Source: Halobacteriales archaeon
Lineage (GTDB): Archaea; Halobacteriota; Halobacteria; Halobacteriales; SKNY01
Assembly (NCBI GenBank): GCA_007118975.1
Contig: SKQO01000035.1
Coordinates: 1 to 34,134, forward strand
Direction: 5' to 3'
DNA length: 34,134 bases
In this document: one piece after another, positions 1,164 through 17,136 of the stretch
Position numbering within the stretch: position 1 is the stretch's first letter
Layout: every line of letters begins with the position of its first letter
The notes under the pieces: model-generated
Database searches by the model: none
Told to the model about the DNA's origin: nothing
What the model saw: the letters and a program-made list of their open reading frames with translations, nothing else
Program-made: the position numbers and the translations under genes

Positions 1164-3044
1164 ATGGCTGGCTTGTGTGGCGTCGTCCCCGATCCCCAGT
1201 ACGACATCGAGACGTTGACGTCCGGTCTGCAGCCGTTCGGTCACGAGCACCTCTCCGAGTGGCGCGGCGAAGCAGGGGCAGTGACCGTCGCTCACCATAC
1301 GCCGGTGGACCAACCCGCCAGTCCCGATGGGGACGAATCGTTGCTCTGGTTGTGGGGCGAGGTGTTCGGGACGTGCAATCCCACCGGGCACGTGAGGCGG
1401 CCGTTGGAGGATCCCGACGACACCGCAGCGTCGTACTGTGTCGAACAGATCGATCGCCATGGGATCGAGAGTCTGGCGGCGTTGAACGGCGAGTTCGCCG
1501 GCTGTCTGTACGATCCCGAGAACCGCACGCTCTCTATCTTTACCGACCGCTGTGGATTTCGACCGGTCTACTACACGATGTCGGGCTCGAACGAGTTCGT
1601 ATTTAGTACGGACGTGCAATCGATACCAGCGTATGACGGTGTAGAAACCGGCTTCGACGCGGATTATCTCACGGAATATCTCACGCTTCGGCGCACGTTT
1701 GGCGTCAAAACGCCACTCAGTGGCATCGAGCGTATTCCTCCGGGGTCCATCCTGCACGTTGACCTAGAGACCGGGGCGAGGCGCATCCAACGGTACTGGT
1801 ATCCACGCTACGAACCGATCTCTTCGTCGTTTGACCGTCACCTGGAGCGGTTTATCGACGTGTTCCTCCAGGTGCTCGCGGACCGGGTGGATCGCAGCCG
1901 GGACTACGGGTTGTTGTTGAGCGGGGGCGGTGACTCGCGGCTCATCCTTGCCGGCATGCGGGAACTGGACCTACCCGTCACGGCCTATCACATGAACGAC
2001 TGGGTCAACCAGGAGGCACGGATCGCCCAGCAGGTGGCAGAGACAGCGGACGTGGAACTGCGCTATCTCTGGCGTGAAGACGACTACCAGGTCGGCGCAC
2101 TCGAGCGTAACCCGAAGTTTATGGATTTCGTCGGATGGTTCAATCAGGCCCACGCCAGCGGGTTCGCGGATCAACTGATCGAGGAAATCGACGTCGTCCT
2201 GTCCGGCCACCTCGCGGGCGAGACGATCAAGCGATTCGATACGTTCTATCCCGAACGCAGAATCGGCGCGGTTCCCCTGCCCTCAGCAGCACCGATCGAG
2301 ACCGTCGCGGATTTCATCGATTTGCTTGACGCCGAGCTTCCGCCGTATCTGAACGGGAGTCGATCACTCCGCGAAATCCTCGAGGCGAACCTCACCACGC
2401 ATGGCGGACGCATCGATCACCATGGTGTCTCCTATGAATCGCTAGAGGATCTGCTCGTGTTCAACGAGCTCTACCCGGCGACCAACGACGGCGACTATTT
2501 CAACTATCGCGGGCTCACCCAGCAGCTGTCGACCTGGTCGCCTTTCATGGACCCCCGGATCCTCGAGTTCGCCCGCCACTATCCCATCGAATACCGGTTC
2601 CGGCGTGATCTCCGATACCGTGCCATCGAGCGTCTCTCGCCGGCACTGGCGGAAATCCCCGATGCAAACACCGGGGTTCCACTCACCAGACCCTTTCCCG
2701 TCCACTACAGTGTCGAAAAGCTCCACAAGGTGCGTCGGAATCAACTGGCACCGCTACTGGACGGCCTCACCGGTGAGCGCACCCCGGAGCCCCACTACGG
2801 CAACGGATCCTGGCAAAGCAACGTCGAGTTGATGCGAGAAGATCCGTTCATCTTCGAGACGCTGACCGACCGAAAAGAGCTCCTCGAGGAAATCCCGTTG
2901 CTCGGTCTCCAAGGGGCGTGGGAGAGCTATCGGGATCATCTCCAGGGGGCGAACAACAAATCGGAGCTGTACACGCTGATCGGCTTACTCAGCATGCCCG
3001 CAACGGAATCGATACTTCGCCGGGTGGACCCAGTGGAGGCGTGA
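1164..3044 (+). CDS. Asparagine-synthase-like protein (class II amidotransferase fold + ATP-pyrophosphatase domain)
   Basis: This 626-residue protein has the two-domain layout of the asparagine synthetase B family. The N-terminal Ntn-type domain (about 1-210) includes LNGEFAGCLYD near 108 and DRCGFRPVYY near 128. The C-terminal domain carries the PP-loop SGGGDS at 253-258, which binds ATP and activates a carboxylate as an acyl-adenylate. Family members transfer nitrogen to aspartate or modify glycans, peptides or antibiotics. The start reads MAGLCGVV where true glutamine-dependent enzymes read MCGI, so the nucleophilic Cys2 is replaced by Ala; the Cys at position 5 is not N-terminal. Glutaminase activity is therefore doubtful, and ammonia or another amine may be the donor. 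Such paralogs are common in haloarchaeal surface-polysaccharide regions, which fits the next gene. Confidence 0.85.
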   Translation: MAGLCGVVPDPQYDIETLTSGLQPFGHEHLSEWRGEAGAVTVAHHTPVDQPASPDGDESLLWLWGEVFGTCNPTGHVRRPLEDPDDTAASYCVEQIDRHGIESLAALNGEFAGCLYDPENRTLSIFTDRCGFRPVYYTMSGSNEFVFSTDVQSIPAYDGVETGFDADYLTEYLTLRRTFGVKTPLSGIERIPPGSILHVDLETGARRIQRYWYPRYEPISSSFDRHLERFIDVFLQVLADRVDRSRDYGLLLSGGGDSRLILAGMRELDLPVTAYHMNDWVNQEARIAQQVAETADVELRYLWREDDYQVGALERNPKFMDFVGWFNQAHASGFADQLIEEIDVVLSGHLAGETIKRFDTFYPERRIGAVPLPSAAPIETVADFIDLLDAELPPYLNGSRSLREILEANLTTHGGRIDHHGVSYESLEDLLVFNELYPATNDGDYFNYRGLTQQLSTWSPFMDPRILEFARHYPIEYRFRRDLRYRAIERLSPALAEIPDANTGVPLTRPFPVHYSVEKLHKVRRNQLAPLLDGLTGERTPEPHYGNGSWQSNVELMREDPFIFETLTDRKELLEEIPLLGLQGAWESYRDHLQGANNKSELYTLIGLLSMPATESILRRVDPVEA

Positions 3045-10879: not shown

Positions 10880-11359
10880 CTATCCGCCGAGGACAATGGC
10901 GGCATTGAGAAACGCCGCGAAGCTAACCCATGCCAGATACGGCACCAGAAGGGCGGCGGCGGGCCGGCTGACCCGATCGAAGACCCGGATCGTGAGGAGA
11001 ATCGCAAACCAGAGCGCCACGATGACCACCAGCCCGCCGATCGGCGATCGCAACCCGAAAAACACCGGCGTCCAGACCAGGTTGAGCGCGAATTGGCCCC
11101 CAAACACGGCGAGGGCACGCCGTACCAGTTCGGGGGGAGCCTCGGCGCGAAGGACCAAGAAGAGCCCAATCGCCATCAGCGAGAACAGCGCAGTCCAGGC
11201 CACGGGAAAGACGAACTCCGGCGGGTACAGGGGCGGCCGGTCGAACCAGGTCGTTTCCGCACCGACGAACACCGCCGGGAGGGCCCCGGCCGCGTTGACG
11301 CCCAAAAGCAACCCCAGGAGGAGGATCCACTCCCGAGGAGTCAGTCTCGGAACGGGCAT
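10880..11359 (-). CDS. tspO: TspO/MBR family membrane protein
   Basis: This 159-residue protein has five predicted membrane helices and the tryptophan-rich signature of the TspO/peripheral benzodiazepine receptor family. Examples are WFDRPPLYPPEFVFPVAWTA, ALNLVWTPVFFG and LLVPYLAWVSFAAFLNAAI near the C terminus. Family members sit in the membrane and bind porphyrins and related tetrapyrroles, and they affect stress or light-dependent regulation. Length is normal for the family. The convergent neighbour is an FAD oxidoreductase of the superfamily that includes protoporphyrinogen oxidase; a tetrapyrrole link is possible but unproven. Confidence 0.92.
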   Translation of the reverse strand: MPVPRLTPREWILLLGLLLGVNAAGALPAVFVGAETTWFDRPPLYPPEFVFPVAWTALFSLMAIGLFLVLRAEAPPELVRRALAVFGGQFALNLVWTPVFFGLRSPIGGLVVIVALWFAILLTIRVFDRVSRPAAALLVPYLAWVSFAAFLNAAIVLGG

Positions 11360-11451
11360 ACGGGGCTAGCCGGGACGAGGGTGTCTAAGGCTTGCGCGGC
11401 TAATGGCTTGACTCCCGAGCGGCACAAGTCATACAAAAAACAGCGCGGAAA

Positions 11452-11471
11452 CCCACGGATTGATCCGTGGG
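11452..11471 (+). repeat. Perfect hairpin, candidate left-end structure of an IS200/IS605-type element
   Basis: CCCACGGAT (11452-11460) and ATCCGTGGG (11463-11471) pair perfectly over nine bases around a two-base centre. Subterminal hairpins of this kind are recognised in IS200/IS605-family elements, and the start of a tnpB gene lies 94 bases downstream. Assignment as the element end is an inference from this association. Confidence 0.5.
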
Positions 11472-11534
11472 AGGGGCGGGTCAGTTGGTCAGCCACCTGC
11501 ATCCCCGCGTTCGCCTGACTCCCCGACCGTGGAG

Positions 11535-11541
11535 TTATATT
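11535..11541 (+). promoter_or_regulatory. TATA-like box of the tnpB remnant
   Basis: TTATATT lies 24-30 bases before the ATG at 11565. The spacing and composition fit a leaderless haloarchaeal promoter that would once have driven tnpB and now drives the chimeric frame. Confidence 0.45.
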
Positions 11542-11564
11542 CGATTACGGAGCCAACAGGGGCG

Positions 11565-11660
11565 ATGGAGCTGCGCCGAACGGTCCCCGTCAAATTGACC
11601 GTTGATTCCGAGCAGGCCGCCCTGCTCCACGAGACCATCGAGCAGTTCCTCTGGGCGGCG
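11565..11660 (+). mobile_element. Remnant of IS200/IS605-type tnpB (first 32 codons)
   Basis: The frame from the ATG at 11565 encodes MELRRTVPVKLTVDSEQAAL and then LHETIEQFLWAA. This closely follows the start of haloarchaeal TnpB proteins (RNA-guided nucleases of IS200/IS605 elements), whose N terminus typically runs to LWAANYVVD. After LWAA the similarity stops abruptly at about 11660 and a MinD/ParA-like sequence continues in the same frame. The rest of tnpB, including the RuvC-like domain, is missing. The hairpin at 11452-11471 may be the element's left end; no right end is visible. Confidence 0.7.
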
Positions 11661-12474
11661 CTCCGCGACGCGGGGCATTCGGTTGCGCTACTCGACGCCG
11701 ACCTCCGGATGCCGAACATGGTGTAGATGCTGGATGTCGAAGAGACCGCGACGGTACACGACGTCCTGACCGGTGAGGCGGACGTAACCGCGGCAATCCA
11801 CGGGGTGACGGAAGGACTCGCGGTGATGCGCGGTAGTGCCGACCTCGAAGCATTTGCGAATGCCGACGAGGACCGCCTCAACTACGTGATCGCCGCACTC
11901 GTGGAGCGGTACGACTTCGTACTCGTCGATACTGGCGCTAGCTTGAGCTTTGCGGAAGCCCCGACGCTCGGCCTGATCGATGATATCATTCTCGTCACCA
12001 CGCCGGATGCCACCGCGCGCCGATGCCGAGAATACGCTCGACCTGATCGCACGCGTCGACGGGGCGGTGCGGGGGGTCATCGTCAATCGAGCCACGACTG
12101 CGGACAATCCCGAGCGGATCGCGTCCGAACTCGGCGTCGAGCTGCTCGGCATGGTCCCGGACGATCCCGTGGTGCCGGCGAGTGCGGATGCCGGGAAACC
12201 GATTCTCGTGCATCAGTCGGAAAGTGCGGCCGCTGCCGCCATGCGGGCGATTGCCGGACAGTTGATGGACGGCGAAGCCGACCATGACTGGACTGCGCTC
12301 GTCGACGAAACACCTGCTGGGGAGGATAGAACACCGCTTGCGTCCGAGGAGCCGAACGATGAGGCGGTGGAACCCGGATCGGATGAGGAGGTGCCCGCCG
12401 ACCCGGTCGAGGAGGATATATCGGCGTCCTCGAGTAGCGGGCCGCCGGGATGGCTCCGACGGTTGTTCGGCTGA
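11661..12474 (+). pseudogene. Decayed MinD/ParA-like ATPase lacking Walker A
   Basis: From 11661 the frame reads LRDAGHSVALLDADLRMPN, the second conserved block of MinD/ParA deviant-Walker ATPases. An in-frame TAG at 11724-11726 interrupts it. Then come TVHDVLTGEADVTAAIHG, YDFVLVDTGASLSF (the Walker B/Asp region) and DDIILVTTPDATA. A one-base shift near 12018 moves to the frame with ADAENTLDLIARVDG and VRGVIVNRATTADNPERIA. The tail is an acidic linker ending GPPGWLRRLFG, resembling the amphipathic ends of membrane-targeted MinD proteins. The N-terminal P-loop, expected just upstream, is replaced by the tnpB fragment. Three independent lesions make it non-functional. It converges on another decayed gene, four bases away. 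Confidence 0.8.
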
Positions 12475-12477
12475 TAC

Positions 12478-13503
12478 TCAGTCGGCACTTCCCTGGAAGA
12501 CGCGCTCGAAATTCCACCGGAAGGCGGCCAGGGTCTCCACCACTTCCTCGAGGGAGGTCATCGAGGCCTAGAGGGTTTCGACGTCCTCGTTCGCGGCAGT
12601 CGTCTCCGCCACGCTTTCGACGTCAGCGAGAGTCGACTGGACCGCCGACACCTCGCGTGTCAGGTCATCCATGCATTCTTCGAGCGTGTCCAGCCGTCGG
12701 ACCGGACTGCCCTCCTCATTGAGGAACTGTTAGAGTGAATCGGTCTACGCCCAGAGATGGGCCACTTCGCTCTGGAGATGTGTGATCCGGGGGTCGGTGG
12801 CGTCGTTCACACCGCCAAGGGCCGAACGGAGGGTAGTTTCGTCAACGCTTGAGCGTTCGCCATCCCGCAGCTGTGAAGGGGGGACGGCCGCCACATCAAC
12901 CGAACGGTCCCCATCCGACAGTACACGGGGTTCGGACTCTGGCGATTCCTTCACCTGCTGTTTATCTTCGTCCTCACTCGTCGAAGCGTCCGACCCCGCC
13001 GGCGCTGATTCCATGACCGCCGCTTCATCTTCCATCGTCGCGTCCATCGAGAGTTCCGACCTATTACCGGCGATCAGGTCGCGGACATTCTCGTCGCGAT
13101 CCTGCCCCAGGGCCTCCCCCAGCTCTGCTGCGACCGAGGCGGCGTCTTCGATCGTCTCCACCGCCACGGGGCGTCAGGAGCAACATCGTCTCCGGATCGT
13201 CTTGGAGCTCCCGCATTCCGTAGTGCGACGTCACCGCTTCACCCGGCCCGAAGACCCGCTCGAACCGGAGCATCCCTCCCTCGATCGACCAGAATTCGCC
13301 TCACATTCGGGATGAAACTCGATGTACTCGATCGGGAGGTCGGCCGGCAGCGGATCGGTGAGTGCCACCCGGAGCGGAACCTCGCAGTTAGACTCGATCG
13401 CGATCTCGACTGCCGGATGTTCGAACGTGTCCGTATCGAGCGCCTTTGCGACCGTAACGCCCGCCTCCTCGACTGTCAACGGTGATTGTTCCACGGATCC
13501 CAT
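12478..13503 (-). pseudogene. Decayed haloarchaeal beta-domain/coiled-coil protein
   Basis: Joined frames reconstruct about 341 residues from an ATG at 13503. First comes a beta-rich domain (VTVAKALDTDTFEHPAVEIA, PADLPIEYIEFHPEC, LRFERVFGPGEAVTSHYGMR). An acidic, low-complexity linker follows, then a coiled coil (RITHLQSEVAHLWA, RRLDTLEECMDDLTREVSAV, TSLEEVVETLAAFRWNFERV). A one-base deletion lies near 13293 and a one-base insertion near 13170, which cancel in total length. Nonsense codons are TAG (12745-12747), TAA (12730-12732) and TAG (12568-12570). I recall haloarchaeal proteins with the same layout, function unknown. Its partner across the convergent junction is the decayed MinD-like gene. 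Confidence 0.75.
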
Positions 13504-13672: not shown

Positions 13673-13834
13673 ATGATACAACGCTTTCGTCTTTTGCGGG
13701 CTGGTGACATCGAGTGGGTGCCGGCCATTCTTGAGCGGTACGCTCGGCAGCCGCCAGGGGACAAGCTGTTTCGGCGGGTCGGCCCCGTGCACGGTGATCG
13801 AAAACGGCGGGCGACAGCTGCAGCCGAGATATGA
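13673..13834 (+). CDS. Possible small ORF overlapping the importer start
   Basis: A 53-codon frame (MIQRFRLLRAGDIEWVPAIL...) starts 25 bases after the TTTTTA element and ends with TGA overlapping the ATG of the next gene (ATGA), an arrangement typical of translational coupling. It is arginine-rich, has lower third-position GC than true neighbours, and matches no family I recognise. It may be a leader peptide or only a chance frame in the 5' leader. Confidence 0.25.
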   Translation: MIQRFRLLRAGDIEWVPAILERYARQPPGDKLFRRVGPVHGDRKRRATAAAEI

Positions 13835-15222
13835 ACGGTTCGGAGCTAGGCAGGCGGCACGTCCTGACGATGGGAGGGTCACTCGCGGGGACCGCGCTTG
13901 CCGGCTGCCTGGAAGGCCCAGATCTCGATGACAATCCCGACGCCGAACCGACAGGCACCGGGGCGTTTTACACCCTGATGGAATGGGGAGACGCCGTGAC
14001 CGGTGATGCCATGACGTTCGATACACCGGTCGACGTCGGGCAAATGGGCCACGGGTGGGATCCGGACGCCGACATCGTCGCCACCATTGCCCAGGATCGG
14101 GCGTTTATCTACCTGGAGACGCCGGAGTTCCAGTGGTCGATCGATGTCGCCGGAGAGCTCGCCGCCGACCACGATGTCGCCTTGATCGACGGCATGGACG
14201 CGATTCCACAATCCGCGTTGCTCCCGTTCACCGACGTGGGGAGCGACGTCCTGGCGTCCCCGGATTCCGAGGTCGAGATCGATCCGGCAGACCTGGTTAT
14301 CGGTGAATTCGAAGTCGTCGTGGGCAACGAAATCAGCGCATACTGGCACGCCGACCACTGGCACGGCGGCATTCCGGACGTACCGCTGGACGACACCCAC
14401 GTGCTGCGGTTTAACGTCCGGGACGACGAAGACCGCGTCCTCCCACTCAACGATGAAAGCCCGTTGTCGATCACCGCGATGGTGGACGATGACGACATTG
14501 TCGGGACCGAACGCGTGGACGACGGGATCGAACTCTCGGGTGAGTCCCCCGGGCAAACGTTGCTTTCCTTCGCCGTTACCGTCGATGACGAGACCGTCTT
14601 CCGGACCGCCGAGGACCCACTGGTCGTGACGGTCGCGGAAGCCGACGAGGTTGACCTGGACGCCTTCTATGACCCCCATGTCTGGGTCGATCCGATTCAC
14701 GCCAAATCAATCGTCGAACATATCGCCGCGGAACTGGGGGAGCTTCTCCCGGACGAAGAGGATGACATCGAGCAACGAACCGAGGAGTACGTCGAGCGGA
14801 TCGACGCCGTCGACCGGCAATTCGAGGAGCTAGTCGATGACGCCGCACTCGACGTGGCCGTCTACGTCGCACACGACGCGTTTCAGTACGTCGAGGACCG
14901 TTACGGATTCGAACTGCACACGCCGGTCGGCGTTACGCCGGACGCGGCCGCGTCGATCGAGGATCTCGCGGAGCTCAGGATTACCATCGAAGAACACGGG
15001 ATCGAGACGATCCTCTTCGACCCCTTCGAAGCGGCTGACCCGAACGACGGCGTCCCACAAGCAGTAGAGGTGCTCCTCGAGGACACACCAGTCCAGGAGG
15101 CGATGCCGCTGTCACCTGTTGAGGGGATCACGAGGGAGTGGCACGAGGAAGGATATGGCTGGGTCGAACAGATGGAGGAGATCAATCTGCCTGCCCTCAG
15201 GAAGGCGTTGAAGGCGACATGA
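13831..15222 (+). CDS. ZnuA-like metal-binding lipoprotein with a large inserted domain
   Basis: This 463-residue protein begins with a Tat-type signal (RRHVLTMGGSLAGTALAGC) and a lipobox ending at Cys26, so it is exported folded and lipid-anchored. The cluster A-I fold shows likely metal ligands His74 (GHGWDPD), His283 (DPHVWVDP), His348 (VAHDAFQY) and an acidic residue at about 397 (LFDPFE). Between the two lobes, at about 150-270, is an extra beta-rich region with the histidine-rich stretch AYWHADHWHGG. Ordinary family members have about 300 residues. It heads a three-gene importer with the ATPase 37 bases downstream. Zinc is the likeliest substrate; manganese is possible. Confidence 0.85.
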   Translation: MNGSELGRRHVLTMGGSLAGTALAGCLEGPDLDDNPDAEPTGTGAFYTLMEWGDAVTGDAMTFDTPVDVGQMGHGWDPDADIVATIAQDRAFIYLETPEFQWSIDVAGELAADHDVALIDGMDAIPQSALLPFTDVGSDVLASPDSEVEIDPADLVIGEFEVVVGNEISAYWHADHWHGGIPDVPLDDTHVLRFNVRDDEDRVLPLNDESPLSITAMVDDDDIVGTERVDDGIELSGESPGQTLLSFAVTVDDETVFRTAEDPLVVTVAEADEVDLDAFYDPHVWVDPIHAKSIVEHIAAELGELLPDEEDDIEQRTEEYVERIDAVDRQFEELVDDAALDVAVYVAHDAFQYVEDRYGFELHTPVGVTPDAAASIEDLAELRITIEEHGIETILFDPFEAADPNDGVPQAVEVLLEDTPVQEAMPLSPVEGITREWHEEGYGWVEQMEEINLPALRKALKAT

Positions 15223-15259
15223 TTCGACTGGACCGATGTACATCCGGGGGTGAATCCCA

Positions 15260-16003
15260 GTGAACCCTGCCGTAGAGCTCCAGAACGTGTGGTTCGCCTA
15301 CGACAACCATCTGGCGGTCGAGGACGTTTCGCTGACTATCGAACAGGGCGAGTTCGTCGGGTTGATCGGACCAAACGGATCGGGGAAGACGACGCTACTT
15401 CGACTGATCCTCGGGCTGGAACGACCCGATCGCGGGACGGTGAGACTGTTCGGCGAGTCGGCCAGGTCCTTCGAGGATGGGGAACGCATCGGACACGTCT
15501 CACAACATGCAACGGATCGAGGCGCTGCCATGCCGGTCACGGTCAGGGAGGTCGTTTCGATGGGCCGGTTCGCGCGGGTGGGACGAGGGCGCATGCGGGA
15601 AGCGGACCACCAGGTGGTCGACGAAGCACTTGCGACGGTCGACCTGACCGAGCTGTCGGACCGGCGGCTCGACCGACTCTCCGGCGGACAGCGACAACGT
15701 GCGTACATCGCACGGGCACTCGCCTCCGAGGCGGACCTGCTGGCGCTCGACGAGCCGACAGTCGGCGTTGACGCGACCTCGCGGGACGAGTTCTACAGCC
15801 TGCTCTCTCGATTACATCACGATGGCCTCACGATCCTGTTGATCGAGCACGACATCGAGGTGATTACCCGGCACGTCGACACCGTCGCCTGTATCAACCG
15901 AGAACTCCACTACCACGGCGATTCGGTTTCGTTCCTGGAGAGCGAGGCACTCAGTGAGGCCTACGGCGAGTCCCATGGCATTATCCACCACGATCACCCA
16001 TGA
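15260..16003 (+). CDS. ABC transporter ATPase of zinc/manganese importer
   Basis: This 247-residue ATPase powers metal uptake with the binding protein and permease beside it. Visible motifs are Walker A GPNGSGKT (37-44), signature LSGGQRQR (from 140), Walker B LLALDEP (160-166) and the switch histidine in LLIEHD. The C terminus is histidine-rich (HGIIHHDHP), which fits a metal-related role. The start is taken as the GTG at 15260 (MNPAVELQNVWFAYD), which gives normal family length. Its stop overlaps the permease start by four bases (ATGA). Confidence 0.92.
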   Translation: MNPAVELQNVWFAYDNHLAVEDVSLTIEQGEFVGLIGPNGSGKTTLLRLILGLERPDRGTVRLFGESARSFEDGERIGHVSQHATDRGAAMPVTVREVVSMGRFARVGRGRMREADHQVVDEALATVDLTELSDRRLDRLSGGQRQRAYIARALASEADLLALDEPTVGVDATSRDEFYSLLSRLHHDGLTILLIEHDIEVITRHVDTVACINRELHYHGDSVSFLESEALSEAYGESHGIIHHDHP

Positions 16004-17136
16004 CGGAGGAGCAGCGCCCGACCGCTGACGGTGGCACGACGGATATCACGGGGTCGATCCGGGGGCAGATCACTGCGTGCTTGACGCGCTCGCGAATCCG
16101 TCGGCTCGAACATGCGGGGCTGGGTATCGCCGCGCTTCTCACGCTAGCGATGCTTTCATTTCTTCTCCTCGAGTGGCTTCGTGCCTACAGCGGGGGAGCC
16201 ACGCTACTGTACTCCCAGTTTCTGATCATCGGGGAGTGGCTCGACTTCTACCTCGGAACGATCGTCTTCCAGGTGCCGAGTACGTGGCGAGCGCTCGCGA
16301 CCGCGGTGGTGATTGGTGTCGTTGCCCCGGTCATTGGTGCGTTTTTGATCCATCGACAGATGGCGCTGATCGGGGAAACGCTCGCACACACCGCGTTCGC
16401 GGGCGTCGCGGCCGGCGTGGTCGTCGTGGCGTTCACCGGGTGGCAGGGGAGCATCATCCTCTTCGATCTCGGCTCACAGGGGGCACTCCTGTTCGTTGCA
16501 CTCGTCGTGAGTGCACTCGGTGCCCTCGGACTCCAGTGGTTGAGCGACCGGTCGCAAACGTACGGTGATGTTCCCATCGCGATCGTCCTCGCGGGAAGCT
16601 TCGCCATCGGGACGCTGCTGATCAGCTGGAGCCGGGAGTTCGCACCCATCACGGTCGACGTCGAAGGATTTCTGTTCGGGAGCCTCGCGCTGGTCACCAC
16701 AGCCGGCGCGAGGATGGTGGCCGTTACGAGCGTTCTCGTCCTCGCGGTGATCGCCGTGTACTACAAACAGTTCATGTTCATCACGTTCGACGAACAGGCG
16801 GCCCGCGTTGCGAGGCTCCCGGTCGACCGGTTCAACACGCTCCTCGTCGTCATGACGGCAGTCGTCGTCGTCGGTGCAATGCAGATCCTCGGCGTGATCC
16901 TGGTCGCGGCCATGCTTGTCGTGCCCGCCGCGACGGCCTCACAGCTCGCGCGGAGTTTCCGTGAGACCATCGCGCTGGGGATCCTCGCCGGACAGGCGGC
17001 CGCGATTGGCGGCCTGCTCTTCTCGCTGCTCGCAGGGCTGCCACCGGGCGGTTCGATCGTCGTCGTGGCGATCGCGATCTATCTGCTCGCCGTGGTCGTG
17101 AGCAACCGGTCGCCGTCCGGCGTGCCCGCGTACTGA
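16000..17136 (+). CDS. ABC transporter permease of zinc/manganese importer (ABC-3 family)
   Basis: This 378-residue membrane protein has a polar N-terminal tail of about 40 residues followed by about nine hydrophobic segments. Typical ABC-3 features are ALIGETLAHTAFAGVAAG, FGSLALVT, YKQFMFITFDEQAARVARLP and LGVILVAAMLVVPAATA. It forms the channel for the metal delivered by the upstream lipoprotein. It is translationally coupled to the ATPase through the ATGA overlap and ends 15 bases before the convergent aldehyde dehydrogenase. Confidence 0.92.
   Translation: MTEEQRPTADGGTTDITGSIRGQITACLTRSRIRRLEHAGLGIAALLTLAMLSFLLLEWLRAYSGGATLLYSQFLIIGEWLDFYLGTIVFQVPSTWRALATAVVIGVVAPVIGAFLIHRQMALIGETLAHTAFAGVAAGVVVVAFTGWQGSIILFDLGSQGALLFVALVVSALGALGLQWLSDRSQTYGDVPIAIVLAGSFAIGTLLISWSREFAPITVDVEGFLFGSLALVTTAGARMVAVTSVLVLAVIAVYYKQFMFITFDEQAARVARLPVDRFNTLLVVMTAVVVVGAMQILGVILVAAMLVVPAATASQLARSFRETIALGILAGQAAAIGGLLFSLLAGLPPGGSIVVVAIAIYLLAVVVSNRSPSGVPAY

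Follow-up and report, generated by a model that had tools for sequence, protein, structure and literature searches.

A tnpB 5′ remnant joined in frame to a broken minD-type gene in a haloarchaeal genome

The window analysed here is a stretch of 34,134 nucleotides from a Halobacteriales archaeon (assembly GCA_007118975.1, contig SKQO01000035.1), in which the 5′ end of a tnpB gene runs into most of a broken gene of the minD type, which acts in cell positioning, on the forward strand (11,429–12,474). Judged from its letters, this locus is a chimeric pseudogene whose join is genuine at the base level. It is flanked by an intact TspO gene (10,880–11,359, reverse strand) and by a convergent pseudogene (12,478–13,503, reverse strand), beyond which lies an intact ZnuABC-type operon (13,831–17,136, forward strand). 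Rfam families and tRNAs were looked for across the window, and none were found.

Upstream, the chimera consists of the left end of an IS605/IS1341-type tnpB element together with its promoter region (11,429–11,564, forward strand), matched in DNA at the same position of three other copies in the genome. Identity is 85% over 225 bp to a 5′ remnant on contig C25 (11,436–11,659; E 4e-68), 76% to a full element on C42 (11,429–11,659; E 1e-38) and 71% to a near-full-length copy on C1 (11,428–11,659; E 3e-24). All three matches stop at the junction, and the boundary at 11,429 agrees with the full-length comparison of C42 and C1 (query position 377). The region contains a near-terminal hairpin at 11,452–11,471, a perfect 9-bp inverted repeat CCCACGGAT-TG-ATCCGTGGG around a TG centre that forms an 8-bp stem and a 4-nt loop when folded, and a TATA-like box, TTATAT, at 11,535–11,540 (forward strand), about 25–30 nt 5′ of the ATG at 11,565. 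Most aligned element copies carry a related inverted repeat where the hairpin sits, and the C25, C42 and C1 copies have an equally placed TTTATA-type sequence. Because the DNA similarity extends upstream of the ATG, the hairpin, the box and the start codon belong to the element, as a sequence-only reading of this locus had proposed.

Codons 1–32 of tnpB follow at 11,565–11,660 (forward strand). Their product is 91% identical to the start of the open TnpB frame on C42 (E 9e-12), and 81%, 78% and 64% identical to those on C25, C1 and C81, respectively. The C42 frame is open for 402 codons from the homologous ATG and is named an RNA-guided TnpB (guided_TnpB) by NCBIfam (E 1e-52). Searched alone against Pfam and NCBIfam, the 31-residue TnpB piece gave no match; it is too short for these profiles, and copies from the same genome were therefore used to identify it. 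The stretch common to C42 and C1, from left to right end, measures about 1,400 bp, of which the window keeps just the initial 231 bp. A search of the window found neither a right end nor similarity to the C42 element past 11,659, and the remaining 370 tnpB codons are missing. The locus thus has the tnpB N terminus and upstream near-terminal hairpin of this element type and lacks the nuclease/zinc-ribbon part and right end of a complete one. We also considered a PATE, a terminal-only IS605 derivative that keeps both ends and loses the core, and rejected it because only the left end is present. A phage search gave no match, and a plasmid search gave one, a Halorientalis transposase whose similarity is confined to the 5′ part of tnpB.

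The other copies in this genome have settings of their own. On C42 (1,354–3,618, reverse strand) the full tnpB element ends in a right-end hairpin, CCCACGAG-TTCA-CTCGTGGG, followed directly 3′, on the same strand, by the C-terminal portion of a dehydrogenase-like gene. The C25 copy (1,690–1,953, reverse strand) is a second 5′ remnant, a left end with 42 tnpB codons, adjoining a truncated dehydrogenase-like gene on the opposite strand. Near-full-length copies lie on C1 (1,970–3,162), broken by a TAG, a frame change and a TGA, and on C81 (1,153–2,259), broken by a TAG.

From the start at 11,565 the frame reads MELRRTVPVKLTVDSEQAALLHETIEQFLWAALRDAGHSVALLDADLRMPNMV and then TAG, crossing at about 11,655 from TnpB codons into archaeal MinD. 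The junction is GCGGCG at 11,655–11,660, where the WAA of TnpB meets the AAL of MinD: TnpB DNA similarity ends at 11,659 and MinD similarity begins there, as had been proposed from the letters. An in-frame join alone is expected by chance in 1 case in 3, and we regard the phase of this one as an accident.

The MinD pseudogene is in two pieces on the forward strand. Its 5′ piece (11,661–12,014) matches TIGR01969 from position 24 to 141 of 251 (E 8e-24) and lacks Walker A and the first 23–25 or so codons, and its 3′ piece (12,022–12,474) matches positions 147–235 (E 1e-10) and carries an acidic tail and a C-terminal PGWLRRLFG before the TGA at 12,472–12,474; each piece alone scores below the full-length cut-off of that family. 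The profile comparison that had been suggested thus identified the MinD half, with the TnpB half resting on the genomic copies. The core segments DADL and VLVDTG (Walker B) are present in alignment. Absent is the deviant Walker A, KGGVGKT, of which a version stands at the N terminus of all 58 intact haloarchaeal relatives. As the chimera differs from every one of these, its first 32 residues are not the native N terminus of the ATPase, and the earlier claim of a TnpB start running in frame into a MinD core without Walker A holds. The closest intact MinD proteins among the matches listed are only 43–46% identical, and a search for relatives returned just one remote Caulobacter match in genome contigs and none in viral contigs. 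Because 24 of 27 near-invariant residues are kept (3 differ, where intact relatives average 0.7 changes and reach at most 5) and GC3 is normal, the MinD piece seems not to be heavily eroded, and its death may be recent.

Two lesions, both recognized in the sequence-only reading, interrupt the chimera. A TAG at 11,724–11,726 ends the fused open frame after 53 codons, a tighter limit than that reading had allowed, and a frameshift lies at 12,015–12,021, where tblastn alignments of relatives move from frame 1 to frame 2. The frame is therefore not open through both halves, as that of a functional transposase–host fusion gene would be. It now specifies a 53-residue peptide without a P-loop, and a second start right after the TAG would open a MinD fragment whose frame breaks near 12,015. 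With a TAG, a frameshift and no ATP-binding loop, the predicted product of the chimera is dead, and we see no evidence in its sequence for a function. Neither the 53-codon frame nor the open frames downstream should be annotated as genes.

The convergent neighbour, a coiled-coil protein gene weakly similar to DUF7310, is a second pseudogene, its reading frame shifting at two points and interrupted by three stops (TAG, TAA and TAG). Each of the 12 genomes tested has an intact relative of its N-terminal part. In two genomes (G013 and G038) a minD paralogue lies some 5.5 kb away from these intact relatives. Decay is local to minD and this neighbour. Because the other large genes examined in the window are open, general sequencing error is disfavoured.

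We consider it highly probable, at roughly 0.87, that the chimeric pseudogene arose by a single deletion that began within tnpB and ended within minD. An IS605/IS1341-type element would have inserted just upstream of the minD-like gene and collinear with it, after which one deletion from tnpB codon 32 to about minD codon 24 would have removed five things at once: tnpB codons 33–402, the right end, the minD promoter, the minD start and Walker A. The leftover frames would then have been joined in phase by chance, with the TAG and the frameshift representing later or contemporary decay. Repair may have occurred at a short common GCGGC: the junction letters, TGGGCGGCG, are compatible with a 5-bp overlap, the C42 tnpB having TGGGCGGCC. 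GCGGC stands at the homologous minD place in only 10 of 58 relatives, and what the parental minD read to the left of the junction has been lost, which leaves microhomology suggestive only and beyond proof. Thus, of the short-homology deletion proposed earlier, the deletion stands as the simplest account and the homology is undecided. The sister-genome comparison proposed earlier, for an intact minD-like gene and a complete element, found no such site: the sole congener, G001 (66% complete), does not match the chimera and lacks both this kind of MinD and an ancestral or empty site, its TspO and ZnuABC homologues lying on separate contigs. As no close genome keeps the ancestral arrangement, deletion and other rearrangements cannot be told apart directly.

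Improbably, the join could be a product of the draft assembly, with a minD contig attached to an unrelated, repeated tnpB start. The genome is a draft of 175 contigs (78% complete) in which tnpB left ends recur, but the closest match to this one reaches no more than 85% identity, and no identical repeat that could mislead an assembler was found.

The whole chimera, searched against 394 genomes of the order, had a strong match in 161, the window's own included. Among the matches listed, those in the 160 other genomes begin at about query residue 24–31, a few reaching 13–23, and none covers the TnpB part or both halves; the fusion is thus conserved in no second lineage among them, the congener being incomplete. 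Truncated tnpB starts, in turn, are not rare, given the base-rate counts. Four of the five close tnpB copies found in this genome at the search threshold are broken by a TAG, a frameshift or truncation, and 6 of 57 TnpB starts outside it (in 118 genomes) have open frames shorter than 150 codons. Within the sequence retrieved, the rest of tnpB is missing from two of these six, in G111 (66 codons) and G115 (about 130); another is close to the end of its contig, and the other three have long tnpB similarity past the first stop or frame change.

We give very little credence to the possibility that the fusion once made, or from another start still makes, a MinD without Walker A under the tnpB promoter with some function. 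In its favour, the promoter, start codon and frame survive, the core retains most conserved residues and its GC3, and the Walker A lysine of Haloferax MinD2 matters little for its role in motility, a point mutant showing no more than a mild motility defect, though with altered CetZ1 positioning (PMC11621097). However, here the entire N-terminal strand and P-loop are gone rather than one residue, the TAG comes after 53 codons and is followed by a frameshift, and no relative among the matches listed conserves the fusion. Slimmer still is the chance that the deletion yielded an expressed, TnpB-led protein without a P-loop that worked or interfered for a time before the TAG and frameshift. We reject the idea that this organism translates TAG as an amino acid: TAG is frequent among premature stops (in the window, C1 and C81), but the intact adjacent TspO gene and other long window frames terminate in TAG, and the premature stops fall at differing alignment residues, include one TAA and one TGA, and occur alongside frameshifts.

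The chimera is better read, from its sequence, as incidental damage from the decay of an IS605-type element. The first suggestion, that a promoter and start codon were captured for a host domain, finds no support beyond the geometry, given the loss of normal ATP binding, the 53-codon frame, the frameshift, the decayed neighbour and the lack of such a fusion in any other genome among the matches listed. Beside the broken copies of this genome, both tnpB decay and deletions are documented as frequent in Haloquadratum (PMC3119063). The chimera is ordinary in kind, a scar of genome decay and no new gene. It offers one clean example of IS605-type decay deleting into an adjacent gene and leaving an in-frame chimera, and illustrates the accidental origin of such frames without demonstrating the retention of such captures.

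Compared with archaeal MinD (TIGR01969; Haloferax MinD1–4), the locus matches over positions 24–235 of 251 and shares the acidic tail, and differs in lacking the deviant Walker A N terminus and in bearing a TAG and a frameshift. Like the C25 remnant, it keeps the left end and tnpB start of the same element type (42 codons there) and has lost the remainder; unlike it, it has an in-frame host domain rather than a truncated dehydrogenase-like gene on the opposite strand. A close parallel in the literature is with the IS605-type (IS1341-type tnpB) remnants of Haloquadratum walsbyi, where tnpB is disrupted in the great majority of cases (83/100 and 77/82) and deletions bounded by direct repeats of 4–20 bp are common (PMC3119063). 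Both are haloarchaeal tnpB genes truncated by deletion, those of Haloquadratum including many pseudogenes and showing short direct repeats at the deletion ends. In contrast, the repeat here is unverifiable, and the putative deletion exits the element into a host gene, leaving a single frame by chance.
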